Notes under the pieces: model-generated | Told to the model about the DNA's origin: nothing | The model's database searches: none | The model's input: the letters and a program-made list of their open reading frames with translations, nothing else | Assembly: GCF_020091405.1 (NCBI RefSeq) | Contig: NZ_CP081903.1 | Location: forward strand, 3,038,501 to 3,102,500 | DNA: 64,000 nucleotides | Reading direction: 5' to 3' | Origin: Bacteroides cellulosilyticus | Lineage (GTDB): Bacteria; Bacteroidota; Bacteroidia; Bacteroidales; Bacteroidaceae | Made by a program: the position numbers and the translations under genes | Shown: positions 9,884-26,841 of the stretch, in pieces | Layout: every line of letters begins with the position of its first letter | Position numbering within the stretch: the first letter of the stretch is position 1

Positions 9884-9925
9884 AAATTTTAAAACTTGCT
9901 TTTAGGAACTCTCATTTAAAACACC

Positions 9926-9933
9926 TACTTTTG
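9926..9933 (+). promoter_or_regulatory. -7 box upstream of the DUF1573 gene
   Basis: TACTTTTG fits TAnnTTTG and lies 21 bases before the start codon at 9955. It gives the gene its own promoter although it follows the macroglobulin closely. Confidence 0.6.
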
Positions 9934-9954
9934 TGCATCCTAAAATGAAAACGA

Positions 9955-11025: not shown

Positions 11026-11091
11026 AGATTTATGATTTCATAAATCATAAATCTTATCATAAATCATAAATTAGAAATCATAAATCTTATC
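11026..11091. repeat. Stuttered ATAAATC spacer repeats
   Basis: The spacer before meaB consists almost entirely of variants of CATAAATCATAAATCTTAT, several copies and one inverted start (ATTTATGATTTCATAAAT can pair). This is the same style of short stuttered spacer as found at 29812-29872 and 34496-34560. Confidence 0.75.
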
Positions 11092-12192
11092 ATGGAACAT
11101 CCTGAAAACGATGAATCCTATAAAGGATTGGTTGTCAATGCAGGCATTGAGCAACCTTCGTCTGTCAATCCCTATCTCCGCCCGAAACCTAAAAAGCGTC
11201 AGCGTTCCGTAGCGGAGTTTGTAGAAGGCATTGTGAAAGGAGACGTCACAGTGCTGAGCCAGGCGGTTACTTTAGTGGAAAGTGTGAAGCCCGAACACCA
11301 GGCATTAGCACAGGAAGTTATTGAGAGATGCCTGCCTTACTCAGGGAACTCTATCCGTGTGGGTATCAGTGGTGTGCCTGGAGCCGGAAAAAGTACCTCT
11401 ATTGATGTCTTCGGCTTGCATGTGTTGGAAAAATACGAAGGTAAGCTGGCAGTGCTTGCCATCGACCCCAGTAGCGAGCGCAGTAAGGGCAGTATCCTGG
11501 GTGATAAGACGCGTATGGAGCAACTCTCCGTTCATCCAAAATCCTTCATCCGCCCCAGTCCGTCGGCAGGTTCTTTGGGTGGGGTAGCGCGTAAGACGCG
11601 TGAAACGATTATTCTTTGTGAAGCTGCCGGTTTCGATAAAATCTTTGTAGAGACGGTAGGTGTGGGACAAAGTGAGACAGCTGTACACTCTATGGTCGAC
11701 TTCTTCCTGCTTATCCAGTTGGCCGGAACAGGTGACGAACTGCAAGGCATCAAACGTGGTATCATGGAAATGGCGGACGGTATTGTTATCAATAAGGCAG
11801 ATGGTGATAACCTGGAGCGTGCTAAACTGGCCGCATCGCAATTCCGCAATGCTCTGCATCTGTTTCCTGCTCCCGAGTCAGGATGGACGCCACAGGTGAT
11901 GACTTATTCCGGTTTCTATAACCTGGGTGTGAAAGAAATCTGGAAGATGATTTACGACTATATTGCTTTTGTGAAAGATAACGGTTACTTTGAATATCGA
12001 CGTAACGAGCAAAGCAAATACTGGATGTACGAAAGCATCAATGAGCGTCTGCGCGATAGTTTCTACCACAATCCGGCCATAGAAGCCATGTTAAGTGATA
12101 AAGAACAGCAGGTACTTCAAGGCAAACTCACTTCCTTTGTTGCGGCAAAGAGCTTGCTCGATACCTATTTCGGAGAAATGAGGAAGAGTTAG
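11092..12192 (+). CDS. meaB: Methylmalonyl-CoA mutase-associated GTPase MeaB
   Basis: MeaB (ArgK family) is the G3E-type GTPase that loads and protects the adenosylcobalamin cofactor of methylmalonyl-CoA mutase, the enzyme of the succinate-propionate route in Bacteroides. The 366-residue protein carries the P-loop GVPGAGKST, the AIDPSS switch region, the ETVGVGQSE motif and the base-specifying NKAD. The length and order match the family. The mutase subunits are not in the window, so MeaB is encoded apart from its client here. The TAG stop lies inside a palindromic repeat that fills the gap to the convergent transporter gene. Confidence 0.95.
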   Translation: MEHPENDESYKGLVVNAGIEQPSSVNPYLRPKPKKRQRSVAEFVEGIVKGDVTVLSQAVTLVESVKPEHQALAQEVIERCLPYSGNSIRVGISGVPGAGKSTSIDVFGLHVLEKYEGKLAVLAIDPSSERSKGSILGDKTRMEQLSVHPKSFIRPSPSAGSLGGVARKTRETIILCEAAGFDKIFVETVGVGQSETAVHSMVDFFLLIQLAGTGDELQGIKRGIMEMADGIVINKADGDNLERAKLAASQFRNALHLFPAPESGWTPQVMTYSGFYNLGVKEIWKMIYDYIAFVKDNGYFEYRRNEQSKYWMYESINERLRDSFYHNPAIEAMLSDKEQQVLQGKLTSFVAAKSLLDTYFGEMRKS

Positions 12193-12273
12193 TTACAAAG
12201 CTACGAGCTACAAGCTACAAGTAGCTGCGCTATCATGCCGCAAGGCACTTGTAGCTTTGTAGCTCGTAGCTAA
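12189..12273. repeat. Palindromic repeat family A, copy 1
   Basis: The arms are built from CTACAAG/CTACGAG-type heptamers and their complements; the centre reads AGCTGCGCTATCATGCCGC then AAGGCAC. It spans the whole gap between the convergent genes meaB and the EamA transporter and could act as a two-way terminator. Copies 2 and 3 are at 26724-26840 and 48665-48771. Confidence 0.9.
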
Positions 12274-12274
12274 T

Positions 12275-13186
12275 TCACGCTTTTTTCCCTTCCTTCTCAA
12301 AGTCCGCCTTCGATTTACTCTTCGTTACGATATATACGCCAAGGAATACCAGGGCGATAGCTACACCTTTTTCCCAACCGAATATACCCAGCCCCATGAT
12401 AATGGCAGCAATAGAAGCTACGATGGGTTGCATATAGTTGTACATACTCACTACTGTGGGACGCAACAACCTTTGTGCGGTCATAATGAAGATATAGGCA
12501 AGGAAGCTACCACCTATTACTACGTAGCCCACTTGTACGTATGCTGCGGTAGAAATTTCCGCCCACTGAATACCTGCCACATCATGATAAGAGAATGGAA
12601 TATAGCACATGGAGGCATAGATAAACATCCACTTATTCAATGTGATGGGAGAATATTTCTGCGATAAGCCCTTGAACACAGTCAGATAAATAGAGAAGCT
12701 GATTTGCGCTACCAGACAAAGCAAGTCCCCGATAATACTGCTGTTGCCGTTGCTTGTGGCCTGACTGCTTAATATAAGCGTCAGCGCTCCCATGGCTCCT
12801 ACAAAAATACCCAGTACTTTCAGGTTCGTGATAGGTTCCTTCAGATAAATGGCAGCGATAATCATGGTTACGATAGGAAGTGTGGTTGTTACGATGGAGG
12901 CATCGATGGGTGAAGTCATTGAAAGCCCGAAGATATACACTCCTTGATTGAACACCAGTGCAAAAAGTGAAGCAAAGAAAATCTTCAGCATATCGCGGTG
13001 ATCCACGTGTTCGTGCTTACAGAATGCAGACAGTAGCCAGAAACAGGCGGCTGCACCTACCATGCGGAACGTAGTTACCGATAAGGCTGAAAACTCCATA
13101 AGTGCGGATTTGCCGATGGGAGCCATTAGTCCCCATAAAATATTGGCAGTCAGGGCGAATATATGCCCTTGTACATTCTTATTCAT
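12275..13186 (-). CDS. EamA/DMT-family transporter
   Basis: This inner-membrane transporter of the drug/metabolite superfamily has two EamA halves of about five transmembrane segments each. The first half starts IFALTANILWGLMAPIGK and the second starts near GDLLCLVAQISFSIY. The start was set at the ATG at 13186 (product begins MNKNVQGH), because the upstream 11 codons are Lys/Arg-rich, give no signal and lie in the promoter-side spacer. DMT carriers export or take up small metabolites or amino acids; the substrate cannot be told. The gene is convergent with meaB and separated from it only by a palindromic repeat. Confidence 0.88.
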   Translation of the reverse strand: MNKNVQGHIFALTANILWGLMAPIGKSALMEFSALSVTTFRMVGAAACFWLLSAFCKHEHVDHRDMLKIFFASLFALVFNQGVYIFGLSMTSPIDASIVTTTLPIVTMIIAAIYLKEPITNLKVLGIFVGAMGALTLILSSQATSNGNSSIIGDLLCLVAQISFSIYLTVFKGLSQKYSPITLNKWMFIYASMCYIPFSYHDVAGIQWAEISTAAYVQVGYVVIGGSFLAYIFIMTAQRLLRPTVVSMYNYMQPIVASIAAIIMGLGIFGWEKGVAIALVFLGVYIVTKSKSKADFEKEGKKA

Positions 13187-13278
13187 ACTCTTTTTTCTTT
13201 TGAGGCTGCAAAAGAACAACTATTTTTTGAAACTAAAAAGTCTTTTCTCTTTTTATATACTTGTAGTCTGTTGGAAGT

Positions 13279-13344
13279 ATATATCGGACGTGTTGCATCT
13301 ATATATCGGACGTGTTGCATCTATATGTCGGATGTGTCGCATCT
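13279..13344. repeat. 22-bp tandem repeat, three units
   Basis: Three direct copies of an ATATATCGGACGTGTTGCATCT unit (the third with four changes) are followed by a partial, diverged fourth unit to about 13373. The period is not a multiple of three and no gene covers it. Each unit has a TATATCGG core that could bind a protein. Confidence 0.88.
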
Positions 13345-13487
13345 ATATATCCAACGCCACCGATATATAGACGCTAAAGGAACAGGATGAAAGAAGGGCG
13401 TTTAGCCTTCTAATACGATTCGTCCTACCAATCATGCGGTTCATGCAGTGTAAGGAAACCGGAAGATTTACTATTTCTCCTTTTTAC

Positions 13488-13560
13488 AGGAAGTTAGGAG
13501 TTTGTTGGCAAGAAGTTAACTTCCTGTCGACAAACTCTTAACTTCTTGTCGACAAGAAAT
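13488..13560. repeat. Palindromic repeat family C, copy 1
   Basis: The element repeats AAGTTAACTTC-like and CTTGTCGACAAG-like palindromes (AAGAAGTTAACTTCCTGTCG, then CTTAACTTCTTGTCGACAAG). A second, longer copy lies at 57506-57613. Confidence 0.85.
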
Positions 13561-13810
13561 TGATACTTTGTAGCATCTTGATAATCAGAGATGAAAATCA
13601 CTTGTACAAAAAGGGGACTTGTACATGTATATTACTTTATTTTTACATACCTCTTACCTATTCAGCCTGCCTGAATCGGACTTGCCTGAAATTACATAGC
13701 TTGTTGTGGATGAGAATAAGCAATGTAATCATTCATAACATTGCTTATTCCGGATCATAACACTGCTTGTTTTCAGATGTTATTCAATGCATTTGAGTGT
13801 TTTTTCTTCT

Positions 13811-13946
13811 TGCAGTCTTTCAGCTTTTCCCAAACTCCCTGTTCATCGGTATTTCAGCTGAAAGATACCTGAAACAACTATAATACTGGAAGTTTCAGCC
13901 GTAACGCCGATGGACAGGGGATTTCGTGAGGTCTGAAAGAACGGAA
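13811..13946. repeat. Long imperfect palindrome
   Basis: A left arm with TCTTTCAGC, CCCTGTTCATCGG and TTTCAGCTGAAA faces a right arm with TTTCAGCCGT, CCGATGGACAGGGG and GTCTGAAAGA. The arms pair over about 50 bases with mismatches. No open frame covers it. It looks like a dispersed extragenic element present once in this window. Confidence 0.75.
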
Positions 13947-13997
13947 AGAGCTTTTTTCTCAAAAATAGCGGATGCGGAGTGATACTTCATTTATAGT

Positions 13998-14140
13998 TCA
14001 TAACGGAAAAGATATGAGTTTTCACCACAGAGTAACACAGGGTATCACGGAGTTCTATTCTTTTGATTTCAAACTGATTAAACTCTGTGATACCCTGTGT
14101 TACTCTGTGGTGAATTAATTCATAACCGCTCAGAAACGAA
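13998..14140. repeat. Palindromic repeat family B, copy 1
   Basis: The arms at 14021-14054 and 14081-14114 pair at 33 of 34 positions with one wobble (TTCACCACAGAGTAACACAG in the left arm). The palindrome is flanked by CATAACCGCTCAGAAA on the right and a shorter form on the left. Copy 2 is at 43546-43685 with the same flank. Confidence 0.93.
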
Positions 14141-14211
14141 TCAATTTCGCCAACGCCTACTTGTAGTGAAATCATAGAAAGACTTCTCATGACAGTTAAA
14201 ATACAAATATA

Positions 14212-14243
14212 TTTGCTCTAACCTCCAATTTATTCTATATTTG
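14212..14243 (+). promoter_or_regulatory. Promoter of sensor kinase 1
   Basis: A -33 TTTG (14212-14215) and a -7 TATATTTG (14236-14243) are separated by 20 bases, the textbook Bacteroides arrangement. Transcription should start near 14250, which argues against the in-frame GTG at 14252 and for the ATG at 14279. Confidence 0.82.
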
Positions 14244-14278
14244 CAACATAAGTGACAAGTTCTTCAAATTGTCCGAAT

Positions 14279-16363
14279 ATGATAAACTACTTGATGAAAA
14301 TTGTAATGATATTCTGGTTTATTATCTTCTGTCTGCAAGTTAGTGTTGCTCAGGAGATTGATATTAATCAGACCAGAAAACACCTGCTGCAAACACTACA
14401 AGACAATTCCGTCGACAAACAGCAGAGGATGGAGCTGTATATTGACTTGTACGACTTGTCCGATGATGTGACAAGCAAACGTACCTATATTAACGAATCG
14501 CTGCAACTGGCTATTCAGTTGAAAAATCAGATATATATTTTTGAGACACTGGATATTCTTTGTCGCAGTTATAAAGATGAACCGGACTCTTTGCACTACT
14601 ATCAGCAGATAGGAGAAGAGTGTCTGGAAGGGGCTTATAAGAACTTTTATATGGCATGGCTCAAAGCTTTTCCTTCTGTTTGCAAGATGGATGAGGCGGA
14701 GAAACCTGATGAAGCCAATGAAGAAATTTCACGGTATAAACGCCACAAGGTAAATCTCTCCGATAAATCGCAGGAAGTGCAATGGGAGATGATTCTTTGT
14801 TCGGCAATGGAGTGCATCAATTACTTTTCACCGTCTGTTACGAATTTGGGAGACCGCATCATCCATTTGAAGAATATTCAACAGTTGGTCAGAGATTTAC
14901 CTTTTGAGGTAAGTTATAAGTTCAATTGGTATTATCTGACTCGTATCGAGTTCATTTATCGTGCTGAAGGAAAAGCTGAAGAAGCAGCGAAGGCTGTTGA
15001 GGCTTTGGAACAAATGGAGCAACTATACGATAGCCAGTTTGAACTGCCTTTCTACAAGAGGCGTGCTTATATCCGTAACCGTAGCCGTGAAGCCTTACGT
15101 ATGGGTGTTTATAGCGAAATGCTTTATTTCGTAGATGCTATAGGCAGGAAAAGAGCTGATGATATTTATTCCCGGATGAAAGCGTACTATCAGGATAAGA
15201 CTTCAGAGACAGATGAAAGATCGTTCTTGGCTGCCGCTTTCCGCTATTATCTTTATACAGCACAATACGATCTTGCTATGCGGACGGTGGATGACTTGCT
15301 GGAACGGACAGATTCCACCGACACAAATGAGCGGACTGAGTTGCTGGCGAAGAAGATTAACCTGGTTACCCAATGGAAACAGCATTACAAAGAAGGATTT
15401 GACGCCTTTTGGGAATATACCAGCTTGATGGAAGATAATCATGTGGAGGAGACGAATGAACAGTTGGCTGAGATGAGGTCATTGTTTGAAGTGGACAAAC
15501 TAAAGATAGAACAGGCCGAACTTCAGGCACGTTATCATCGTATCGCTCTTGCTGTGCTCATAGTCCTGCTTCTGGTTTTCTTTATCTGGGGACTTTATCA
15601 GTACTTGTTGACGAAACGGCTGAAAGCAACGAAGCGGGCACTGATTCTGTCGAATGAGAAAGTTGCTAAGGAAAGCGAACGAGCCAAAGCAAGCGACCGT
15701 ATGAAGACGGAATTCCTACAGTCAATGTGTCATGAGATACGTACTCCACTCAATGCTATCTGTGGTTTCAGTACCCTGTTGCTGAATGAAGATTTGTCCC
15801 AGGAAGATAAAAAAGATTTTCCGGTTATCATTGAAAAGAACTCCAATCAATTGACTGAATTGTTCGAGGACATCCTGCAAGTATCGGACTTAAGCAGTTC
15901 GTTAGAGTTGCTTCCTATGGAACAGGTGGATATATTGTCGATTTGTGCCGGGCTTCTGGATATATGTAAGAGAAGAGCAGGAAATCCCGAAATCACCTGG
16001 TTATTTGAATCGGGATCGGACGAATGTCTTGTAAAAACGAATGCCCAATATCTGCAACGTGTTGTGGAACACCTCCTGAACAATGCTGCAAAGTTCACGG
16101 TTGCCGGTACTATTCGTATGAGCTTGGTGCATACCGAAGGAAAAGTACGTATTATGGTGAGCGATACGGGAATCGGTGTTCCGGCTGATAAGGCCGAATA
16201 TATATTCGACCGTTTCACTAAATTGGATGAATTTATGCCCGGCACCGGATTGGGGCTTTATTCCTGTCGCCTCATTGTCACTCGTCTGGGTGGTTCCATT
16301 TATCTCGATACATCTTATCGGGATGGCGCATGTTTCTGCATTGATTTGTCGGATGAGAAGTGA
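14279..16363 (+). CDS. Membrane sensor histidine kinase with periplasmic helical sensor
   Basis: This is a classical histidine kinase of 694 residues from the ATG at 14279. A signal or anchor segment comes first, then a periplasmic helical region of about 380 residues with TPR-like character (AEEAAKAVEALEQME). One transmembrane segment lies near residues 420-443. The dimerisation box [12 protein letters not shown] carries the phospho-acceptor His at about 485. The ATPase domain shows the N box LNNAAKFTV, a DTGIGVP G1 box and GTGLGLYS. No receiver domain is attached and no response regulator gene is adjacent, so it is an orphan here. The stop is followed closely by the promoter of the AAA ATPase. 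The signal is unknown. Confidence 0.9.
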   Translation: MINYLMKIVMIFWFIIFCLQVSVAQEIDINQTRKHLLQTLQDNSVDKQQRMELYIDLYDLSDDVTSKRTYINESLQLAIQLKNQIYIFETLDILCRSYKDEPDSLHYYQQIGEECLEGAYKNFYMAWLKAFPSVCKMDEAEKPDEANEEISRYKRHKVNLSDKSQEVQWEMILCSAMECINYFSPSVTNLGDRIIHLKNIQQLVRDLPFEVSYKFNWYYLTRIEFIYRAEGKAEEAAKAVEALEQMEQLYDSQFELPFYKRRAYIRNRSREALRMGVYSEMLYFVDAIGRKRADDIYSRMKAYYQDKTSETDERSFLAAAFRYYLYTAQYDLAMRTVDDLLERTDSTDTNERTELLAKKINLVTQWKQHYKEGFDAFWEYTSLMEDNHVEETNEQLAEMRSLFEVDKLKIEQAELQARYHRIALAVLIVLLLVFFIWGLYQYLLTKRLKATKRALILSNEKVAKESERAKASDRMKTEFLQSMCHEIRTPLNAICGFSTLLLNEDLSQEDKKDFPVIIEKNSNQLTELFEDILQVSDLSSSLELLPMEQVDILSICAGLLDICKRRAGNPEITWLFESGSDECLVKTNAQYLQRVVEHLLNNAAKFTVAGTIRMSLVHTEGKVRIMVSDTGIGVPADKAEYIFDRFTKLDEFMPGTGLGLYSCRLIVTRLGGSIYLDTSYRDGACFCIDLSDEK

Positions 16364-16402
16364 TTTTTCTATTTCCGGGCGTGGAAATAAAAGATAATCA
16401 CG

Positions 16403-16410
16403 TATATTTG
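16403..16410 (+). promoter_or_regulatory. -7 box of the AAA ATPase / DUF4435 unit
   Basis: TATATTTG matches the -7 consensus 21 bases before the ATG at 16432. It shows that the pair has its own promoter and that the longer upstream frame from 16360 is not translated. Confidence 0.68.
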
Positions 16411-16431
16411 CTTTCATTAAAAGCAAAAACT

Positions 16432-17259
16432 ATGGAAGAACAAGCCAATTACATCAAACGTATAGAGATACACAGGTTGTGGGATCGCTTTGACATAGCT
16501 TGGGACTTACGTCCCGACGTGAATATCCTTTCCGGTATCAACGGAGTGGGGAAAACCACGATCCTCAACCGTTCCGTCCACTATCTGGAAGAACTTTCGG
16601 GGGAGATAAAGAACGGCGAGATAGAAGGCGTACGTGTTACCTTCGACCGTCCGGATGCGACGTATATCCCTTACGACGTAATTCGTAGTTACGACCGCCC
16701 CTTGATTATGGGCGACTTTACCGCCCGCATGGCCGATCCGAACGTCAAATCCGAACTAGACTGGCAACTTTATCTCTTGCAACGCCGATACCTCGATTAC
16801 CAGGTGAATATTGGCAACAAGATGATCGAACTCCTTTCCGGTGATGAGGAACAACGTTCACAAGCCGCTTCCTTATCCCTTCCCAAGCGGAAGTTCCAGG
16901 ATCTGATGGATCAGTTATTCAGCTATACCCGCAAAACCATAGATCGCCGCAGCAATGAAATCATCTTCTATCAGGACGGTGAACGCCTGTTGCCCTATAA
17001 ACTATCTTCCGGTGAAAAACAGATGCTGATTATCCTGCTCACCGTGCTGGTGCGCGACAATGCTCATTGTGTCCTCTTTATGGATGAACCCGAAGCCTCT
17101 CTTCACATCGAGTGGCAGCAAAAACTTATCGGTATGATACGTGAATTGAATCCCAATGTGCAACTGATACTTACCACCCATTCTCCCGCCGTCATCATGG
17201 AAGGCTGGCTGGATGCGGTGACGGAAGTGAGCGATATATCGGTGGAAATTAGGAATTAA
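16432..17259 (+). CDS. Compact AAA/ABC-type ATPase, partner of DUF4435 protein
   Basis: This 275-residue ABC-fold ATPase belongs to the AAA_15/AAA_21 (OLD-like) group. Walker A GINGVGKTT is at 35-43, an ABC signature-like LSSGEKQ near 191, Walker B CVLFMDEPEASLH near 214-226, and a switch histidine in LTTHSPAVI near 247. It lacks the long coiled-coil arms of SMC/Rad50, which makes it short for the group. The next gene, 13 bases on, encodes a DUF4435 protein. The pair ATPase + DUF4435 is the composition of the anti-phage PARIS system (AriA/AriB), where the ATPase senses a phage trigger and releases a TOPRIM nuclease. Family and architecture are seen; the defence role is inferred. Confidence 0.85.
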   Translation: MEEQANYIKRIEIHRLWDRFDIAWDLRPDVNILSGINGVGKTTILNRSVHYLEELSGEIKNGEIEGVRVTFDRPDATYIPYDVIRSYDRPLIMGDFTARMADPNVKSELDWQLYLLQRRYLDYQVNIGNKMIELLSGDEEQRSQAASLSLPKRKFQDLMDQLFSYTRKTIDRRSNEIIFYQDGERLLPYKLSSGEKQMLIILLTVLVRDNAHCVLFMDEPEASLHIEWQQKLIGMIRELNPNVQLILTTHSPAVIMEGWLDAVTEVSDISVEIRN

Positions 17260-17272
17260 TAATTATCTCCCC

Positions 17273-18274
17273 ATGGCTACTTCTTTAAAACATAATCTTA
17301 CATCCGCCTATTTCAATGCCGCCAACAAGCTTTATCCCAAGAAGGCGCGGCGTCGCATTGTGGCGTATGTGGAAAGTTACGATGATGTAGCTTTCTGGCG
17401 CACATTGTTGGCTGAGTTCGAGACAGATGAATATTATTTCCAGGTGATGCTGCCTTCGGCTACCTCTCTTGCCAAGGGTAAGAAGATGGTGCTGATGAAT
17501 ACGCTGAACACTACTGAATTGGGCAAGAGCCTGATAGCCTGTGTGGACAGTGACTACGACTTTCTGTTACAAGGCAAAACGAGTGTTTCACATAAGATAA
17601 ACAGTAGTCCCTACATATTCCAGACGTACGCATATGCTATCGAGAATTTCCATTGTTATGCTGAAAGCTTGCATGAAGTTTGCGTGCAGGCTACATTGAA
17701 CGACCGTATGCTGATTGACTTTCCTGCTTTCCTGAAGCGTTATTCGCAAATTGTCTATCCGCTCTTTCTCTGGAACGTCTGGTTCTATTGCCAACGAGAT
17801 ACTTATACTTTTCCGATGTATGACTTCAATGCATGCACCCGTTTGCAGGAAGTCAATGTACATCATCCCGAACGAACACTGGAGCCCGTGCAGCGTGCCG
17901 TTGCCAAGAAACTTTCCGAGATGCGCAGACGTTTTCCGCGAAATATCAAGTCGGTGGAGGCTTTGGGTGTGGAACTGGAGAAGCTGGGACTGAATCCTGA
18001 TACTACTTATCTCTACATACAGGGGCATCACCTCATGGATGGTGTTGTGATGAAACTTCTTATCCCCGTATGCACCGTGCTGCGTCGCGAGCGCGAACAG
18101 GAAATCAAGCGTCTGGCGGCCCACAACGAGCAATTCCATAACGAACTGACCAGCTATGAGAATAGCCAGACCAACGTCAGCTTGATGTTGAAAAAGAACA
18201 GCGGATACAAGAACCTTTACTTGTATCAGTGGTTAAAAGAAGATATAGGAGACTTCCTGAACAGGGAGCGATAA
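17273..18274 (+). CDS. DUF4435 (TOPRIM-like) protein, AriB-like
   Basis: This 333-residue DUF4435 protein retains the acidic residues expected of a TOPRIM metal site: Glu34 in AYVESYDD, and an Asp-x-Asp-x-Asp run at 92-96 in ACVDSDYDF. The C-terminal half is mixed helical, with a charged helix near 270-300. In PARIS defence systems AriB is a DUF4435 protein that is released from the ATPase AriA and cuts host tRNA. The same gene order, tight spacing (13 bases) and intact acidic residues make this a candidate for that kind of unit. A housekeeping use with the same fold cannot be excluded. The mechanosensitive channel gene starts 37 bases downstream. Confidence 0.82.
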   Translation: MATSLKHNLTSAYFNAANKLYPKKARRRIVAYVESYDDVAFWRTLLAEFETDEYYFQVMLPSATSLAKGKKMVLMNTLNTTELGKSLIACVDSDYDFLLQGKTSVSHKINSSPYIFQTYAYAIENFHCYAESLHEVCVQATLNDRMLIDFPAFLKRYSQIVYPLFLWNVWFYCQRDTYTFPMYDFNACTRLQEVNVHHPERTLEPVQRAVAKKLSEMRRRFPRNIKSVEALGVELEKLGLNPDTTYLYIQGHHLMDGVVMKLLIPVCTVLRREREQEIKRLAAHNEQFHNELTSYENSQTNVSLMLKKNSGYKNLYLYQWLKEDIGDFLNRER

Positions 18275-18311
18275 TTACTAACCATTAACACCAAAATTAA
18301 TTCTTAGTATC

Positions 18312-19565
18312 ATGAGCATTGTACAACAAATTAACGAAGGACTTCAGGCTTTAGGTTTCAGCCAGTCATTGGCTGGCCAGTTAGATCAATTTATAGCATT
18401 CCTGGGAGTTCTCCTGGTAGCTTATCTGGCGGATACTGTTTGCCGGAAGATCTTGCTGAAAGTCGTTTCGCGTTTGGTAAAGCAAACAAAAGCCACTTGG
18501 GATGACATTGTTTTCGACCGCAAAGTGATGGTGCATCTTAGCCGTATGGTGGCACCTATTCTTATTTACATCCTGCTTCCTCTGGCATTTTCCGACGCGG
18601 AGTCGGCAACGTTGGCGCTTATCCTGCGCTTCTGCCTCATCTTTATCATTATTATGTTTCTTAGCTTCATCAGTTCGCTGCTTGCAGCTGTCTATACTGT
18701 TTATAGCGAGAAGGAACAGTTCCGTGACCGCCCTTTGAAGGGACTCTTGCAGACAGTGCAGGTCATCCTTTATTTTGTCGGTGGCATCATCGTTGTCAGC
18801 ATACTCATAGACCGTTCACCCGGTGTATTGCTCACCGGTCTGGGAGCTTCGGCTGCCGTGCTGATGTTAGTATTCAAAGACAGTATCATGGGCTTTGTTT
18901 CCGGTGTGCAGCTTTCTGCCAACAATATGCTGAAAGTAGGCGACTGGATTACCATGCCTAAGTATGGAGCGGACGGTGATGTAATAGAAGTGTCATTGAA
19001 TACAGTGAAGGTTCGTAATTTCGACAAAACCATCACTACCATTCCGCCTTACTTGCTCGTAAGCGACTCTTTCCAGAACTGGCGTGGTATGCAGGAGAGT
19101 GGCGGACGACGTATCAAACGTTCTATCAATATCGATATGAACAGTGTGCGGTTCTGTACGCCTGAAATGTTGGCGAAGTATCGCAAGATACAGCTGTTGG
19201 CAAACTATGTTGAACAGACGGAACAAGTGATTAAGGAGTATAATGAAGAGCATCATATTGATAACTCCATCCTTGTGAACGGTCGCCGCCAGACGAATCT
19301 CGGTGTCTTCCGTGCTTATCTGAATTGTTACCTGAAGAGCCATCCGGGTGTAAATCATGATATGACCTGTATGGTGCGTCAGCTTCAGCCTACCGATCAC
19401 GGTATACCATTGGAACTGTATTTTTTCTCCGCTACCACATCCTGGATACCTTACGAGGATTTGCAGTCTGATGTCTTCGACCATCTGTTGGCTATTATTT
19501 CTGAGTTTGATCTTCACGTATTCCAGTCACCATCCGGTGAAGATTTCCGCGAAAGGCTTAATTGA
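18312..19565 (+). CDS. Miniconductance mechanosensitive channel (MscS superfamily, YbdG-like)
   Basis: This inner-membrane channel has 417 residues. Its N-terminal transmembrane helices are followed by a pore-lining TM3 with the Gly/Ala-rich LLTGLGASAAVLML, then the MscS beta domain with GDWITMP and DVIEVSLNTVKVRNFDKT. The box NWRGMQESGGRRIKRSI is diagnostic of the YbdG/MscM subgroup. It opens on membrane stretch to release osmolytes. It follows the DUF4435 gene by 37 bases with no promoter that I can see, so it may be transcribed with the ATPase/DUF4435 pair. A two-way terminator ends it. Confidence 0.93.
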   Translation: MSIVQQINEGLQALGFSQSLAGQLDQFIAFLGVLLVAYLADTVCRKILLKVVSRLVKQTKATWDDIVFDRKVMVHLSRMVAPILIYILLPLAFSDAESATLALILRFCLIFIIIMFLSFISSLLAAVYTVYSEKEQFRDRPLKGLLQTVQVILYFVGGIIVVSILIDRSPGVLLTGLGASAAVLMLVFKDSIMGFVSGVQLSANNMLKVGDWITMPKYGADGDVIEVSLNTVKVRNFDKTITTIPPYLLVSDSFQNWRGMQESGGRRIKRSINIDMNSVRFCTPEMLAKYRKIQLLANYVEQTEQVIKEYNEEHHIDNSILVNGRRQTNLGVFRAYLNCYLKSHPGVNHDMTCMVRQLQPTDHGIPLELYFFSATTSWIPYEDLQSDVFDHLLAIISEFDLHVFQSPSGEDFRERLN

Positions 19566-19620
19566 GATAATCGGCACTGGTTCTCGATATTTTCTCATCA
19601 AGGATGGGAACAGATCAACA

Positions 19621-19666
19621 AAAGCAAACGCCGGACAGTTCCTCTGAACTTGTCCGGCGTTGCCTT
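19621..19666. terminator. Two-way terminator between convergent genes
   Basis: AACGCCGGACA pairs with TGTCCGGCGTT around a short GTTC/GAAC inner stem, with an A-rich 5' flank and a T-rich 3' flank. It can stop both the channel gene (+) and the beta-helix lipoprotein gene (-). Confidence 0.88.
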
Positions 19667-19707
19667 TGTAGAAGCTATTGCTTCGTGAATTATGTGTGTT
19701 TCTCGTT

Positions 19708-20940
19708 TTATTGTTTGATCCAGTTGCCGCTTGTCCAGTTGTCTCCTGTCTTTACAGCTCCCTTATATTCGGCTTTGGTGAAGAAACTGTCGGCACTGAG
19801 GTCTTTGCCACCATCGACGGTGCCTTCGTAGAGATTCTCCCAAGTGAAGTTCTGTGCAGTGAGGTTGCCCGTTGCTGCTGCGAACATATCGTTGGTGTAA
19901 ATGCCTTCTTTAGAAGATAATGTTTTGCTGATAGCTACATACTCCAGTTTAGACACACCCTCTTTCAGGGCTGTTTCAGTTTCTGTGGTTTCTACGGTCA
20001 GAGGTTGACCTTTGCCGGTGATGAGCGTATTGTAAAGTTCCACTTGTGTTCCGGCACGCAGGCGTACGCCCTGTTTGCTGCCACCGTTGCCAATCAGTGT
20101 GAGGTTGGCGAGGATGGGGTGGGCAACGGGCGTTGCACCGAAGCTCTTGCCGTTGTTGTCGCACTCCATCAGGCAGTCGCAGTCGTATCCCAGTTCGTCT
20201 TTGGGGCTTTGGTAAGCTACGAGGAACTGTGCTTTGCCGTTCCAGCCTTCGGTCCAGTCGAAAGAGTCGTCGCTACAGTCGGTAGATACCAGATACTTCA
20301 CATTGACGGAACCGCCGAACCATTCGAAACCATCGTCAGAACCCATGTATGCCTGGCAATACTCTACCGTTGTTCCGTTTCCTACACCGTAGAAGGTGAT
20401 ACCGTTGGCTTCGTGCTCTTCGTCGAAGGCAAATCCGGTGTACTCTACACGAACATACCGCAATGTACCGGAATTGTCGGCGTCATTATTGCCACCATAG
20501 GGTGCGCCGCCTATTTCCGAACTACCCGTTCCGCCTTCGGCATTGGTGTGTGCGTATCCGCAGATGTGGATACCGCCCCATGCGCCCGGTTCTTTCTTTT
20601 CGGAAGTCATCACGATAGGGTTGCTGGCAGTGCCTTGTGCATCTATCTTGGCTCCTTGTTCTATGAGGATGTAGTCTACCACATCGTCATGTTTGGCAAT
20701 AATGGTGACGCCTGCGGGAATCTTCAGTGTGGCACCGTTCTTTACGTGTATGCCGCCACTTAGCGTGTAAGTCTTTCCGGCTTCCAGTTCCGTATAGCTT
20801 TCGATGTCTTTCGTCAGTTCATACTTGTCGTCTTCACCGCCGTCCCCGTTTCCAGGTTCGTTGTTGTCGGTACATGCAGTGAATAAGGTCATACTTGCCG
20901 CGAGGGCCATAGTCATGAATTTCCAATTTGATGTTCTCAT
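19708..20940 (-). CDS. Beta-helix surface lipoprotein paired with TonB receptor
   Basis: This 410-residue lipoprotein has signal and lipobox LFTAC, followed by an acidic linker (EPGNGDGGEDD). Its body is a right-handed parallel beta-helix, suggested by regular short strands with turns such as IHVKNGATLKIPAGVTIIA and GAWGGIHICGYA. It lies 67 bases downstream of a TonB-dependent receptor gene in the same direction, so it probably forms the surface ligand-binding partner of that receptor, in the way SusD partners SusC; it is not itself a SusD. The aspartate-rich stretches (DDGFEWFGG, DDSFDW) could bind metal or a cationic ligand. Homologues are sometimes mislabelled as multidrug transporters; nothing here supports transport. 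The ligand is unknown. Confidence 0.78.
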   Translation of the reverse strand: MRTSNWKFMTMALAASMTLFTACTDNNEPGNGDGGEDDKYELTKDIESYTELEAGKTYTLSGGIHVKNGATLKIPAGVTIIAKHDDVVDYILIEQGAKIDAQGTASNPIVMTSEKKEPGAWGGIHICGYAHTNAEGGTGSSEIGGAPYGGNNDADNSGTLRYVRVEYTGFAFDEEHEANGITFYGVGNGTTVEYCQAYMGSDDGFEWFGGSVNVKYLVSTDCSDDSFDWTEGWNGKAQFLVAYQSPKDELGYDCDCLMECDNNGKSFGATPVAHPILANLTLIGNGGSKQGVRLRAGTQVELYNTLITGKGQPLTVETTETETALKEGVSKLEYVAISKTLSSKEGIYTNDMFAAATGNLTAQNFTWENLYEGTVDGGKDLSADSFFTKAEYKGAVKTGDNWTSGNWIKQ

Positions 20941-21007
20941 ACTAATAATTGTTTAGTTGATAAAATGAGTTCCTATTGTTTGTCTCTCTCAAAGTTTTTC
21001 TTTTCTC

Positions 21008-23698
21008 TTACAGGTCATAGCTGAAGCCAACTTCAAAGCCTGTACCCTTTCTGAAGCGTTCCACTTCTACTTTATCTCCGGTGGTAGGCACTTCTTGCTT
21101 GAAAAGGATGTCTTGGTTCAGCAGGTCGTTGACTTGCAACTTCACCGCGAAACGCCGGTTGAAGCGGTAACTGCCTGTAAAGTTCAGCGTGTGTACCGGC
21201 TGCTGCTTGATGTCTCCCAGACCGGAGATGCCTACGGAGTGGATGCGGGGACCTTGCAGATTGTAGAGCAGGGCAACGCTGAGTTGGCGGTCGTTGCTGA
21301 AAGCGGGTGAATAGGTGAGGTCTGCATTTGCCAGGTAGGGCGATGCTCCCTGCAAGGCACGCTGGCTGTTGGTGTAGGCACCGCCTTCGGGCAGTTTCAC
21401 GTTAGTGTACATATACGAGCCGTTCACGCCGAAACGCAGGTCTTTCACTATCTCTTTGCGGAATTCTATCTCCACCCCCGTTGCCATACCGTTGTCCGCA
21501 TTGCGGAAAGAATGCACGGCGGAACCGCCTGACAGAGTCTGTACACGCTCTATCGGTGCTTTCAGGTGCTTGTAGTAGGCGGTGATGGAGAGCATATCCC
21601 CATTCTTTTCAAAGAGTTCGTAGCGCAGATCGATGTTATAGTTGTAGCCGTTTTGCAAATCAGCGTTACCGCGTATCTGTGCCGAACCGTAGGATTCCTG
21701 ATAGAGGAAGGGGGCCATTTCGATAAACGAAGGACGCGTCACTGTGCGTGAGAAGGCAAAACGCAGACTGTTCTTTTCGTTCATCTGGTATTTCATGTTC
21801 AGTGAGGGGAAAAGGTCGTTTTTGTTCAGTTCACTGCGTTCGGCTTTTCCGCCATCGGTATAGTAGTCTACCCATTGCTTGCTGATTTCGTAGCGTACTC
21901 CCAGGTTCACCAATAACGGGGCTATGGGGTAGTATTCAGTGGCAATGTATCCTGCATAAATGCTGTTACCGGCTGTATAGCTATCTTTGGGCTGCTTCTT
22001 CCGGTCTATGGTGATGGAACCGTTTTCTACATTTTCCATGTTGAGGAAGGAGTCGGTATCGTAGATGTCGGTGATGGTAGGGTTCAGTTTGTTCAGGTTG
22101 TAGTAGAAGCGTGTACCCATATAGTCACGATTCTTGTCTTTATAGGTGAAACCGGCCTGCAACTTGTTGTTGTCGCCAAAGCGGTAGCTGACGGTGAGGT
22201 CGCCCACCCACTCATCTTCATTCAGTGAGCCGAAGTAACGCATGGTTTCTTGGCGGTTCAGTTTGAAGAGTTTTATCTGGTCATCTTCACGGATGAACAT
22301 TACTTGGCGGCGGTCGGGTTCGTTGCTGGAGGTCTTGCTGTACGAGCCGCTCCAGTTGAGGTCCCACTGTTTGCCGAAGTGGTGCTTGCCGTTTACTTGA
22401 TGGTTTTGCAGACTGTAGATGTGTGTCACGTTGTTGCTGCCTATCAGATGGTGGTCTTCGTAGTCCACACCTTCACGCCTCATATAAGTGTCGATGGCAT
22501 TGCGGGCGTAGAAGAAGGTATATCCGATGTGGTCGGAAGTGCGGAAACTGTAGCCGAGATTACCCAGCGCGGCAATCTTTAACTCGTTGCTGTAGCTGTC
22601 GTAGTTGAATTCATTCAGGGTATTTCCTGTAGCTTCTAGGGTACGTATGGAGGCATTGTCCATGGTTTGCAGGTCGTTGCTTACTCCTATGGAGCCCAGA
22701 ACGCTGACTTCATTTCCACCCAGGGTGAAACGTTTGCCGAAGCCGATATTTCCGCCGAATTCGGGTAGGGCAGTCTTTTTACTAACCTGAAAACTGGTGT
22801 TGAAGAGGCGGTTGTGGCGTGCATACTCTTCAAAGTCTGTTAATGACATGTCTATCAGTTTCTGATCCAGAGAAGGAGTGTTGAACAGAGAGCCGTCGCG
22901 GTCCATCCGGTAGAAATCTTTGCCTAGCGTATTGAACTTGCCACCTGCATTGAAGCTGATGGACAGAAAATCACTGCCTACATTCTCTTTGGTACTGATG
23001 TCGATGTGTGCTCCTGAGTAGTCGGCGAATGCACTGGCGTCATATACTTTGCTCACGGTAATATTCTGTACGGTAGATGCAGGGAAGATATCCAGAGGAA
23101 TCAGTTTATTGTCCGGATTAGGAGAGGCGATGGGAAGTCCGTTCAGAGTGGTGGTGCTGTACCGGTCGCCCAGACCGCGCACAATTAACTGTCCGGCACT
23201 GGCGATGGAGATACCGGTTATCTTTTTTACACCTTCTTCCACATTGCTGATTCCTTTGATACTCATTTCTTTGGCACCGAGATTTTCGATTGCAAGGGTA
23301 GCTTTCTGCCGTTCCATCTGCAGGGCTCGTTCACCTTCCAGATTCTTTTTGGCCACTACGGAGACTTCGCCTAACGCTTGTGCATCACTCTCCATCTCAA
23401 AGTTCAGCAAAGTTTCGGCCTTGACTTTTATGCTATTGAGCAGGATGTCTTTGTATCCTATATATCTCACGGTTATGGTATATGTACCGTCATTTACATT
23501 CAGTGTATAATTGCCGTCAATATCGGCTACCACACCCTGGGCTGTCCCGGTTATCTGTATGGTAGCTCCGGTCAGTGGCTCTTTCGTCTGCTTGTCGAGG
23601 ACGGTTCCTTTGATGTTTCCAGCTAGGGCGGTCATGGTGGAAAGCACCAGTAATAAAATGAGGAAAAATACTTTTCCAAAATCCAGTTTCATGCTCAT
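21008..23698 (-). CDS. TonB-dependent outer-membrane receptor (non-SusC type)
   Basis: This 896-residue outer-membrane receptor has a signal peptide (ending TALAG). An N-terminal carboxypeptidase-like regulatory domain (GNIKGTVLDKQTKEPLTGAT) spans about 28-110. The plug domain contains GQLIVRGLGDRYSTTTLNG, and a 22-strand-type barrel ends in an aromatic-terminal strand (GFEVGFSYDL). It lacks the SusC-specific long plug insertion and is shorter than SusC proteins. It uses TonB energy to import a ligand captured by its lipoprotein partner downstream. The start ATG at 23698 is followed by another in-frame ATG two codons later; either could be used. A near-consensus promoter lies at 23724-23731. 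Confidence 0.9.
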   Translation of the reverse strand: MSMKLDFGKVFFLILLLVLSTMTALAGNIKGTVLDKQTKEPLTGATIQITGTAQGVVADIDGNYTLNVNDGTYTITVRYIGYKDILLNSIKVKAETLLNFEMESDAQALGEVSVVAKKNLEGERALQMERQKATLAIENLGAKEMSIKGISNVEEGVKKITGISIASAGQLIVRGLGDRYSTTTLNGLPIASPNPDNKLIPLDIFPASTVQNITVSKVYDASAFADYSGAHIDISTKENVGSDFLSISFNAGGKFNTLGKDFYRMDRDGSLFNTPSLDQKLIDMSLTDFEEYARHNRLFNTSFQVSKKTALPEFGGNIGFGKRFTLGGNEVSVLGSIGVSNDLQTMDNASIRTLEATGNTLNEFNYDSYSNELKIAALGNLGYSFRTSDHIGYTFFYARNAIDTYMRREGVDYEDHHLIGSNNVTHIYSLQNHQVNGKHHFGKQWDLNWSGSYSKTSSNEPDRRQVMFIREDDQIKLFKLNRQETMRYFGSLNEDEWVGDLTVSYRFGDNNKLQAGFTYKDKNRDYMGTRFYYNLNKLNPTITDIYDTDSFLNMENVENGSITIDRKKQPKDSYTAGNSIYAGYIATEYYPIAPLLVNLGVRYEISKQWVDYYTDGGKAERSELNKNDLFPSLNMKYQMNEKNSLRFAFSRTVTRPSFIEMAPFLYQESYGSAQIRGNADLQNGYNYNIDLRYELFEKNGDMLSITAYYKHLKAPIERVQTLSGGSAVHSFRNADNGMATGVEIEFRKEIVKDLRFGVNGSYMYTNVKLPEGGAYTNSQRALQGASPYLANADLTYSPAFSNDRQLSVALLYNLQGPRIHSVGISGLGDIKQQPVHTLNFTGSYRFNRRFAVKLQVNDLLNQDILFKQEVPTTGDKVEVERFRKGTGFEVGFSYDL

Positions 23699-23723
23699 CT
23701 TTTATCGTTTCTTGTTTCCGGTG

Positions 23724-23731
23724 CAAAGATG
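23724..23731 (-). promoter_or_regulatory. Near-consensus -7 box of the TonB receptor operon
   Basis: On the minus strand the sequence reads CATCTTTG, one change from TAnnTTTG, with a TTG-containing stretch about 20 bases upstream. It lies 26 bases before the receptor start. Confidence 0.45.
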
Positions 23732-23890
23732 CGGCAACGGAATTACAACCGTAATACACATGTCATACAATTGATTCTCAATATGATTACATTTGGGTGA
23801 CAGAATGCGTTTGATAATGGCGGATGCCTATTTAAATATGCTTTAGTTTTTTTGTTGATGGGAATAGGAACAAATTCAAGAAGTAAACGT

Positions 23891-23898
23891 TATCTTTG
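23891..23898 (+). promoter_or_regulatory. -7 box of sensor kinase 2
   Basis: TATCTTTG fits TAnnTTTG and sits 29 bases before the ATG at 23928. No convincing -33 TTTG was seen at the usual distance. Confidence 0.62.
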
Positions 23899-23927
23899 CG
23901 CTATTTAGAATCTTAATAGACATTGAT

Positions 23928-26720
23928 ATGAGTGCTGTCTCTTCACATTCACAAGAATCGGAACGCTTTCGTCGACTCTCTGCTATCGGACAGATAGGGT
24001 GGTGGGAAGCTGACTTTACTACCCGGGATTATCTTTGTTCTGAGTATGTATGTAATTTACTGGGTATGAAAGGAGATACTCTGACCTTTCGTGAATTCGG
24101 ATTGTATATCCGTGAAGATTACCGTGAACGTATCAGTCGTGAGTTCGTCTCAATAGAAGAAGTTGAGGTGTACGAACAAACGTTTCCTATCCTTGCCATG
24201 CATGGTGTGGTTTGGGTTCGCTCCCGCCTGGGAGAGAAGTGGATGACGGAAGACGGGCACTTAAAAGCTTTTGGCATTCTCCAGGTGGTTGATGCCCCGG
24301 AGCATATGGGGGCTACAGATATTCTGAAACAGTTCAATGCTTTGTTGTTCCGGCAACACTCCGTATCGAACTCCCTGCGCAATTTTCTGAAAGATAAATG
24401 TCTGGACGAGGTCATTCCTAAAGTCCTGAAAGATGTACTGGAGCTTTTCCACGGCGGACGTGTGTATATTATTGAGTATGATGAGGGATATCATACCCAG
24501 AGTTGCACATACGAGGTTGTGGCAAAAGGGGTAGAGCCGGAGATAGACATGTTGCAGTCCACTGATACTCAGGGGATGGAGTGGTGGCACAATCACATAC
24601 TGGCGGATAAACCTATTTTGTTAAGCTCTTTATCAGAACTGCCGGAAGAAGCCGAACTGGAATATAAGATATTGTCCGTACAAGATATTAAATCATTGAT
24701 GGTGATTCCATTGCGGAATACCGAGCGCATCTGGGGATATATAGGTATTGACCTGGTGGAGAAGGAGCACAGGTGGAATAATGAGGATTATCAGTGGTTC
24801 TCTTCCCTTGCCAATATCATCAGTATCTGTATCAATCTGCGCCGTGCCAGAGATGAGGCGGAACGGGAACGTTCTTTCTTGCGCAATCTATATAAGTATA
24901 TGCCAATGGGGTATGTACGTCTCTCTGTTATTTTCGGTGAGGGAGGCAAACCGGTTGATTATCTCATCACCGATGCCAACCAGTTCAGTGCCGACTTATG
25001 CGGTGCACCGCTGGATAGTTACCGGGGGCATCTGGCTTCGGAGATCTATTCGGAGGAAAAGTTGGCTGAGAAAATGATAGTTCTTGCCGAAATACACAAC
25101 AGGAATACGTACAGGGAGCTGGATGAGTATTTTGAACTTACAGGTAAGACTTGCCACTGCGTCATTTATTCGCCCGACCCGGAAGAGCTGGTTTGTCTTT
25201 ATATGGATGTCACGGAAATGCGGCAGACGTATACGGCGCTGGACCGCAGTGAAAAACTGTTGCGTAATCTCTTCTCCAACATTCCGGTAGGTATTGAAAT
25301 CTACGATAAGGACGGATACTTGATTGACCTTAACAATAGAGACCTGGAAATATTCGGTGTCAAGAACAAGGCGAACACCATCGGTGTGAACTTCTACGAG
25401 AACCCCAATGTGCCGATGGATATACGCGAAAGAATGCAGGTTGAAGATGAACTCGACTTTTCTCAGGATTATGAGTTTACCAAGATAAGCGAATATTATG
25501 AATCGGGGAAAAAGGGGGGGATAGAACTCTATACCAAAGTAAACAAGATATATGACAGTAAAGGTGATTGCAGTGGTTTTGTACTCATCAACATCGACAA
25601 TACGGAAAGGATAACTTCCATCAACCGCATCCGTGACTTTGAAAACTTCTTCCTGTTGATTTCTGATTATGCCAAGGTTGGTTATGCCAAATTGAACCTG
25701 CTCACTCGTGAGGGGTATGCCATCAAACAATGGTATAAGAATATGGGTGAGGATGAAGATACGCCATTGGCAGATGTGGTAGGCATTTATGATAAGATGC
25801 ATCCGGAAGACAGGGTGCGTATATTGGACTTCTTCGATAAAGCCAAGAAAGGGGAAGCGACCAGTTTCAAGAGTGAAATGCGTGTGCTAAGAGCCGGAAC
25901 ACTGAATAAATGGAACTGGGTGCGTGTGAATGTAGTGCTCAACCGCTACGACCCAGCGAATGGACTGATTGAATTAATCGGTGTTAACTACGATATCACC
26001 GAGTTGAAGGAAACGGAACAAAAGCTGATTGAAGCCAAAGAGAAAGCTGAAGAGGCAGACCGCTTGAAGAGTGCTTTCCTGGCAAATATGAGTCATGAGA
26101 TACGTACGCCACTGAATGCCATTGTCGGCTTCTCAAGCTTATTGGTGGAGACGGAAGATCCGGAAGAAAAGCAGGAATACGCCAAAATGGTGGAAGAGAA
26201 TAATGAACTGTTGCTTCAACTGATTTCAGATATTCTGGACCTGTCTAAGATAGAGGCAGGAACTTTTGACTTTAAGTTCAGAGATTTCGACATTAATACT
26301 TTGTGCGGAGATCTTGCACGCTCCATGCAGTTGAGAGTGAAGCCGGGAGTGGAACTTGTTTTTGAGCCGACCTTACCGCAATGCGTCATCGTCAGCGATC
26401 CTAACCGCTTGCATCAGGTGGTTTCCAACTTTATAAATAATGCCATTAAGTTCACCACCACGGGCAGCATTCGGATTGGATACGATAAGCCGGACGACAA
26501 GCATTTGCGGGTATATGTGACAGATACTGGCATTGGTATTGCTCCCGAAGCTTGTCGTAAGGTATTCGACCGCTTCATTAAGCTGAACTCTTTTGTGCAG
26601 GGTACAGGACTGGGACTTTCCATCAGCAAGAGTATCATCGAGCAGTTGGGGGGCAAGATTGGAGTAAACAGTGAGTTAGGTAAAGGTTCGACATTCTGGT
26701 TTATTTTGCCGCTGGAATAA
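23928..26720 (+). CDS. Cytoplasmic multi-PAS/GAF sensor histidine kinase
   Basis: This soluble histidine kinase of 930 residues has no transmembrane segment. The order is an N-terminal PAS-like domain (about 10-125, [17 protein letters not shown]), a GAF domain (about 145-310, with [17 protein letters not shown]) and further PAS domains near 315-430, 440-560 and 570-695. The dimerisation box [19 protein letters not shown] has its His near 723. The ATPase domain shows [17 protein letters not shown] and [12 protein letters not shown]. There is no receiver domain and no adjacent response regulator. Multi-PAS/GAF sensors of this kind read redox state or small ligands; the ligand is not evident. 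It ends at a family A palindrome shared with the convergent nuo operon. Confidence 0.9.
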
Positions 26721-26723
26721 TTC

Positions 26724-26840
26724 AGTTACAAGCTACAAGAGTTACAAGCTACGAGCTACAAGCTACGAGTGCCTTGCGGTGTGATAGCGCAGCCACTCGT
26801 AGCTTATAGCTTGTAGCTCGTAGCTTGTAACTCTTGTAGC
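26724..26840. repeat. Palindromic repeat family A, copy 2
   Basis: Arms of CTACAAG/CTACGAG-type units face each other around a centre that, read on the minus strand, is GGCTGCGCTATCACACCGC, close to copies 1 and 3. It fills the entire gap between sensor kinase 2 (+) and nuoN (-), whose stop codons lie just outside it. Confidence 0.92.
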
Positions 26841-26841
26841 A

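Follow-up and report, generated by a model that had tools for sequence, protein, structure and literature searches.

The stretch of DNA analysed here (the window) comprises 64,000 nucleotides of the Bacteroides cellulosilyticus chromosome. Our subject is a pair of adjacent genes within it, encoding a small ABC ATPase and a nuclease of the DUF4435 family. Taken together, the sequence matches and structural models indicate that they belong to the AriA and AriB protein families of PARIS, an abortive-infection system known as an accessory one. A gene for an MscS-type channel follows the pair. The features of the locus are listed below. Residue conservation is given for Bacteroidaceae ("core") sequences selected at an identity of at least 50% for AriA (160 of 185 matches) and at least 38% for AriB (159 of 163) and then made distinct, which left 130 of each, and for 25 other distinct AriB sequences (24 from Rikenellaceae and one from genome G882).

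16403..16410, forward strand: Bacteroides-type -7 promoter element TATATTTG (TAnnTTTG) before the ATPase, found in 54 of 69 distinct upstream regions of relatives.
16432..17259, forward strand: open reading frame (ORF) of the AriA-like ABC ATPase, short type, 275 residues, recognised by Pfam, PADLOC, the PDB search and the structural model.
16534..16560, forward strand: Walker A, GINGVGKTT (GINGVGKT being residues 35-42); G35, N37, G38, G40 and K41 kept in 130/130 distinct core sequences.
17002..17019, forward strand: ABC signature LSSGEK (residues 191-196); L191, G194, E195 and K196 kept in 130/130, S192 in 129/130.
17083..17106, forward strand: Walker B and catalytic glutamate, DEPEASLH (residues 218-225); D218, E219, P220, E221, S223, L224 and H225 kept in 130/130.
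17273..18274, forward strand: ORF of the DUF4435/Toprim AriB-like nuclease, 333 residues.
17273..17347, forward strand: AriB N-terminal segment, residues 1-25, of NLTSxY type; S11, Y13 and A16 kept in at least 97% of core AriB sequences.
17372..17374, forward strand: Toprim glutamate E34; 130/130 Bacteroidaceae, 25/25 others.
17546..17560, forward strand: Toprim DxDxD motif (D92, D94, D96); 130/130 Bacteroidaceae, 25/25 others.
18026..18028, forward strand: invariant H252; 130/130 Bacteroidaceae, 25/25 others.
18312..19565, forward strand: ORF of the MscS-type (YnaI-like) channel, 417 residues, with an MS_channel_2nd domain; its best PDB sequence match is YnaI.

The intergenic gaps are 13 base pairs (bp) between the ATPase and DUF4435 genes and 37 bp between the DUF4435 and channel genes. 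The former agrees with the initial annotation, which was also right that the Walker motifs (GINGVGKT and DEPEASLH, to which LSSGEK and an H-loop THSP at residues 249-252 can be added) and the Toprim-like acidic residues E34, D92, D94 and D96 are intact. The invariant H252 of the nuclease is a possible RNA or active-site residue. Pfam assigns AAA_21 (68.3 bits) and AAA_15 (64 bits) to the ATPase, DUF4435 (165.7 bits) to the nuclease and MS_channel_2nd (60.1 bits, E 2.3e-16) to the channel. An Rfam scan of positions 9000-27000 gave no match.

The top PADLOC model for the ATPase is AriA PDLC04164 (E 2e-58), a model of 253 residues that covers the protein nearly end to end. In a PDB sequence search the best match is E. 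coli AriA (8ux9_B/8v45_A, E 1e-14), with retron and other ABC ATPases starting at 1.9e-9; the E. coli protein, of 464 residues, aligns in two stretches, residues 6-44 and 356-440. The AlphaFold2 model of the ATPase has a mean predicted local distance difference test score (pLDDT) of 85, and by structural Z the PARIS AriA chains come top (17.0, 242 residues aligned), with Septu PtuA second (14.2). The ATPase had been described as much shorter than the usual AriA. This is true in comparison with the E. coli protein, but not with the 253-residue PADLOC model, nor with the ORFs of accessory AriA proteins (see below), of which 15 were read: 14 have 244-296 residues and the remaining one has 443. 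The short AriA is therefore not exceptional.

For the nuclease, the top PADLOC model is AriB PDLC02983 (E 2e-65). A PDB sequence search with the DUF4435 protein found no match, and folds were therefore compared. The AlphaFold2 model has a mean pLDDT of 89, the means for N-terminal residues 1-10 and 11-20 being 46 and 52. PARIS AriB again has the highest structural Z (10.6 and 10.5, over 242-245 residues), the next chain reaching 5.7. Profile searches and structure prediction had been proposed as the check on the AriA/AriB composition, and they bear it out: the resemblance is real in both sequence and fold. The locus also passes the published detection rule for PARIS, which asks for AAA_15 at 32 bits or more or AAA_21 at 27 or more, plus DUF4435 at 27 or more, in one locus (PMC9122126); here the scores themselves were compared with these thresholds. 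The ABC ATPase has intact Walker A, signature and Walker B motifs, and the nuclease is an AriB-type Toprim protein with catalytic Glu and Asp. In PARIS the two genes stay together, side by side or fused; here the picture differs between the two families described below. The long AriA of about 464 residues with a large central section, which is outside the published rule, is replaced by a protein of 275 residues, and neither the patchy occurrence nor the siting in mobile elements or hotspots that is typical of accessory defence systems is found.

The distribution is instead close to universal within one family. In the genus sample AriB is present in 87 of 99 genomes, at least part of AriA in all 87, and the two are adjacent in 85. 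The wider sample holds 199 genomes, each at least 90% complete, and is read as Bacteroidaceae because B. fragilis, B. finegoldii and several species of Phocaeicola are among its named loci. AriB occurs in 192 of these (E<=0.001) and AriA in 193 (E<=1e-15), in 22 of 22 genera; both genes are absent from six (G026, G087, G383, G426, G435 and G473), and AriB alone from G496. In G053 and G056, AriB is split between two frames, from either decay or sequencing error. Gene order was counted in 75 of 80 named loci and in 19 of 20 stretches from other Bacteroidaceae genera, and AriA lies directly upstream of AriB in 71 of the 75 and in all 19. The neighbours vary, and the pair is the conserved unit. 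In the order sample AriB profile matches were found in 18 of 247 genomes, four of them Bacteroidaceae, with eight other families also represented; two genomes of another family have a strong AriB and no AriA. In the phylum sample there were matches in six of 392 genomes, five of them Bacteroidaceae. The counts for these two samples are minimum values, as the search scores a limited set of candidates in each genome.

The pair also descends much as the species do. In 30 chosen genomes from 19 genera, the distances for each of the two proteins correlate with those for rpoB (Spearman 0.62 for AriA and 0.73 for AriB; Mantel 0/999), and the combined AriA and AriB tree has 18 of 27 splits in common with the rpoB tree, where 1000 label shuffles give at most two. 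Purifying selection is strong: the ratio of non-synonymous to synonymous substitution rates (dN/dS) between the window and its relatives is 0.034-0.054 for AriA, 0.048-0.062 for AriB and 0.030-0.040 for the channel, rough values from the 10 of 15 comparisons with an estimable dS, which is high (0.8-4). The Toprim residues do not vary across the 130 core AriB sequences. The element upstream of the ATPase matches TAnnTTTG, the Bacteroides -7 consensus (PMC7366714), and is of vegetative type. The 69 upstream regions in which it was counted were of 80 bp, and mononucleotide shuffles of them give a mean of 3.9 and a maximum of 10 against the 54 observed; upstream of DUF4435 it occurs in 2 of 65 regions.

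A second family separates the nuclease from the ATPase. This family is read as Rikenellaceae because close homologues are named Alistipes or Rikenellaceae. AriB is present in 78 of 80 genomes, in 16 of 16 genera, and AriA at E<1e-30 in 11 only, so that AriA was not found at this threshold in 69; two further genomes have weak matches (1e-9 and 1e-12), which we read as generic ATPases. In the 11 genomes with AriA, the genes are adjacent in six and unlinked in five, either about 152 kb apart (G541, G548), about 50 kb apart (G531), or on different contigs (G527, G554). AriB without detectable AriA is found in 67 of the 80 genomes, including one of only 1.3 Mb (G600), and in four genomes that are single contigs (G528, G555, G558, G573) no AriA was found even at E<=1e-8. 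The loci lacking AriA that were opened show no common neighbour in its place. E34, D38, D92, D94, D96, E124, N125 and H252 are invariant in 25 of 25 distinct AriB sequences (those of 24 Rikenellaceae and G882). A tree taking in 24 of the 78 Rikenellaceae AriBs places the 16 without AriA in one clade (Shimodaira-Hasegawa-like approximate likelihood ratio support 98), and the loss of AriA is therefore most simply read as a single event. Unlinked AriA genes were seen in L270 and L272; that of L272 follows genes that by eye resemble SppA, LpxK and a nucleoside phosphorylase.

The N-terminus of AriB changes together with the presence of AriA. The Rikenellaceae AriB profile match begins at position 1-4 in 11 of 11 genomes with AriA, including those in which the genes are distant, and no earlier than position 16 in 66 of the 67 without it (the exception, G585, begins at 7). 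A six-position pattern, defined after the sequences were seen, occurs in 127 of 130 core Bacteroidaceae sequences, in eight of eight from AriA-bearing Rikenellaceae and in none of the 16 AriA-less ones that were read. This is suggestive of, and not proof for, an AriA-docking segment that decays once AriA is gone.

On the basis of near-fixation, the vegetative-type promoter element, purifying selection and a nuclease that outlives its ATPase, we favour a host function. We consider it probable that the pair is a core, vertically inherited host module sharing ancestry with PARIS, in which AriB is a Toprim RNase and AriA a small controlling ABC ATPase. By this proposal AriB would be a metal-dependent RNase, with tRNA or some other structured RNA as its likely substrate. 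AriA would dock on the N-terminal segment of AriB and, by analogy with E. coli PARIS, gate its activity with ATP. The role would lie in the host, for example in RNA processing or as a stress brake on translation, rather than in a dedicated phage alarm. More tentatively, and with less confidence, we suggest that DUF4435/AriB is a core RNase of two Bacteroidales families with AriA as a dispensable ATP-dependent regulator, that PARIS shares an ancestor with it, and that PARIS calls in Bacteroides are mostly this core locus.

Several points weigh against this proposal. The pair has been lost from three genomes that are single contigs (G026, G087, G435) among the six lacking it, and it is therefore not essential everywhere. 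AriA matches are weaker than 1e-80 in seven of the 193 family genomes (G346, G362, G367, G394, G400, G428, G510) and may be partial or divergent, and the AriB of G346 (1.3e-60) may be an accessory copy. There is no AriB match in 229 of the 247 order genomes, which makes a task universal in the order unlikely. Nine splits of the pair tree are absent from the rpoB tree, and in five cases the rpoB tree has a contradicting split with support of at least 90, which may reflect some local transfer or an error in the trees. In the AriB tree, the support for Bacteroidaceae and Rikenellaceae alone is only 65. By Foldseek E-value, retron Ec78 ATPases are slightly ahead of AriA for the ATPase model, and AriB, though first in the list for the nuclease model, reaches only E 1.4e-3 and a TM score of 0.44. 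The absence of AriA from Rikenellaceae comes from a profile search, which an extremely diverged copy could escape. A looser S-x-Y pattern remains at the N-terminus of 7 of the 16 AriA-less sequences, and loss of AriA and change of the N-terminus look like a single event, so that their correlation is one data point. Finally, the closest relative to have been characterised, E. coli AriB, is described as a tRNase acting in defence (PMC12409363).

The main rival is that the pair is a PARIS-type abortive-infection system which has become fixed as innate immunity of Bacteroidaceae, AriA sensing a phage protein and freeing AriB to cleave tRNA. The nearest solved relatives, by sequence for AriA and by structural Z for both proteins, are indeed PARIS proteins, and the published detection thresholds are passed. 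DefenseFinder calls a PARIS in B. thetaiotaomicron jmh43 (PMC12135933), which may or may not be the present locus. Near-fixation and rpoB-like descent speak against it. So does the persistence of AriB in Rikenellaceae: as far as reported, defence in E. coli requires both genes, and deletion of ariA is not toxic (PMC9122126), so that an immune model would leave AriB harmless but without a task where AriA is missing. The strict conservation of just such AriBs is, as we read the sequences, the strongest single argument for a non-immune role, and we regard fixed immunity as unlikely. The initial annotation of the pair as the PARIS anti-phage system is not supported in that form, since the pair is core to the family and follows the species tree, and since the nuclease is kept in a second family without detectable AriA. 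The outcome that annotation had itself set against PARIS, a core and vertically inherited set resembling AriA/AriB in fold only, is right in its first half; the similarity extends to sequence.

The channel had been proposed as the membrane component of a three-gene unit, following the nuclease after 37 bases with no visible promoter. The gap is confirmed, and the window shows no promoter-like element ahead of the channel; among relatives, TAnnTTTG occurs upstream of the channel in 1 of 23 regions, against 54 of 69 for the ATPase. When the neighbourhood of the three genes is compared across Bacteroides, the channel lies within 500 bp after the pair in 67 of the 87 pair-bearing genomes (median gap 71 bp), and to this extent a channel that serves the pair as its membrane effector or as a sensor of stress has some appeal. 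However, the channel is the immediate next gene in 43 of the 75 named loci and in none of the 19 from other Bacteroidaceae genera, and within Bacteroides 13 genomes have the pair without a channel orthologue, and in six the channel is present and the pair absent (G010 and G041 among them, both only about 70% complete). Linkage breaks down outside the genus, and the channel was rejected as a component of the system; we consider the three-gene reading very improbable. On the linkage and promoter counts, the channel is probably co-transcribed with the pair in Bacteroides, yet is probably a genus-level neighbour and not a functional or essential part of the conserved module.

Some loci differ in their surroundings. 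In the window, a sensor histidine kinase (14252-16363) lies between an EamA-like gene and the ATPase; it is also present in some close relatives and is unmatched in most other loci. In seven divergent members of the genus (L033-L039), MeaB is closely upstream of the ATPase, the gap measured from one aligned end to the other being about 5-90 bp, and these stretches have no channel match. In four Bacteroides genomes without the pair (L194, L195, L212, L213), the place between the EamA-like transporter and the channel, a frequent site of the pair, is occupied by three other genes, which by eye resemble those for aconitase, isocitrate dehydrogenase and citrate synthase.

The initial annotation placed the pair in ordinary chromosome outside any prophage, in accordance with its family-core distribution and with the lack of any match to it in 50,697 phage records. 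IMG/VR yields one distant partial match (36%). A plasmid search gives nine matches, among them a Phocaeicola record; the best, B. finegoldii "plasmid 41" (L244, NZ_OY725943.1, PLSDB), has the gene order of the window chromosome (alpha-2-macroglobulin, DUF1573, MeaB, DMT transporter, AAA ATPase, DUF4435, channel) and is therefore probably a chromosomal piece labelled as a plasmid. On the phage, IMG/VR and best plasmid matches, a prophage or plasmid origin was rejected. The least credible reading is a selfish toxin-antitoxin-like module maintained by addiction: AriB is reported to be the toxin in PARIS (PMC12409363, PMC11455837), but deleting ariA is not toxic to E. coli, 67 of 80 Rikenellaceae genomes have AriB and no detectable AriA, and mobile elements offer no phage record and a single distant viral match.

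Pairs of this general kind do occur on plasmids elsewhere. Positions 1-1948 of Klebsiella pneumoniae pK708696-4 (L245), a 4.4-kb ColRNAI plasmid, hold genes for an ATP-binding protein and a DUF4435 protein, which PADLOC labels AriA and AriB; the plasmid has five annotated genes in all. ATPase-DUF4435 pairs are also seen on Acinetobacter haemolyticus pAhaem11616c (L281) and a Psychrobacter cryohalolentis plasmid (L280), one of these being a 6.95-kb mobilizable plasmid.

If the host-module proposal is true, a nuclease related to an anti-phage tRNase would be linked to a core host function in a dominant family of the human gut and in most of another. Either an immune tRNase would have been recruited to host physiology, or an immune system would have been derived from a core RNA enzyme. 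PARIS calls made by defence-annotation tools in Bacteroidaceae may then be inflated, which would affect statistics of the gut defensome. In the literature on PARIS, AriA/AriB or DUF4435, no title or abstract opening among the papers listed describes the core locus, main texts not being covered. The proposal is readily testable, since B. thetaiotaomicron can be manipulated genetically and lineages that naturally lack AriA can serve for comparison.

Among known systems, some are related to one side of the pair. Septu PtuA and the retron Ec78/Ec83 proteins are OLD-like ABC ATPases with a weaker sequence match to the ATPase (1.9e-9, against 1e-14 for AriA) and without a DUF4435 partner. RNase M5 is a Toprim rRNA maturase. 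It is like the AriB side only, and this likeness is taken not from the present sequences but from a published comparison, according to which the active site of AriB resembles that of RNase M5 (PMC12409363).

PARIS of E. coli B185 has the same composition, with an ABC ATPase beside a DUF4435/Toprim nuclease, the same catalytic motifs, and the highest structural Z for both models. In PARIS, a hexamer of AriA keeps AriB sequestered until a phage trigger frees it. In E. coli, AriA is reported to hold AriB, a metal-dependent tRNase (PMC12409363, PMC11455837), which cleaves tRNA-Lys(UUU) (PMC12409363). PARIS of E. coli differs in that its AriA has 464 residues rather than 275, with a middle section of 311 rather than 134, and in that it is cargo of satellites or prophages, whereas the pair described here is a chromosomal core pair with rpoB-like descent, whose AriB can persist without AriA.

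Closest in layout are the accessory short-AriA pairs of PDLC04164/PDLC04165 type (L198, L047, L048, L050), which also have a short ATPase and an adjacent DUF4435 protein. Such pairs are second copies in a few genomes: of the 99 genomes in the genus sample, at least four (G014, G035, G054, G082) carry a second, divergent pair, with local identities of 23-29% for AriB and 35-52% for AriA. On PDLC04164/PDLC04165, the pair of L198, from another family, scores 326/302 bits against 196/133 for the window pair. In the trees the accessory pairs stand apart from the core pair, with support of 98 (AriB) and 73 (AriA). A core-like AriA-AriB pair was also seen in G882 (L279), of the same phylum and another class; its AriB matches at E 2e-81, and the presence of the pair there may point to transfer or to an older origin. 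In the AriA tree, G882 falls together with Bacteroidaceae and Rikenellaceae (support 90), and the same grouping is not rejected for AriB (approximately unbiased test, p-AU 0.59). Because the accessory pairs group apart and score better on the PADLOC short-AriA models, the core pair is best regarded as a separate subfamily of a kind already known.

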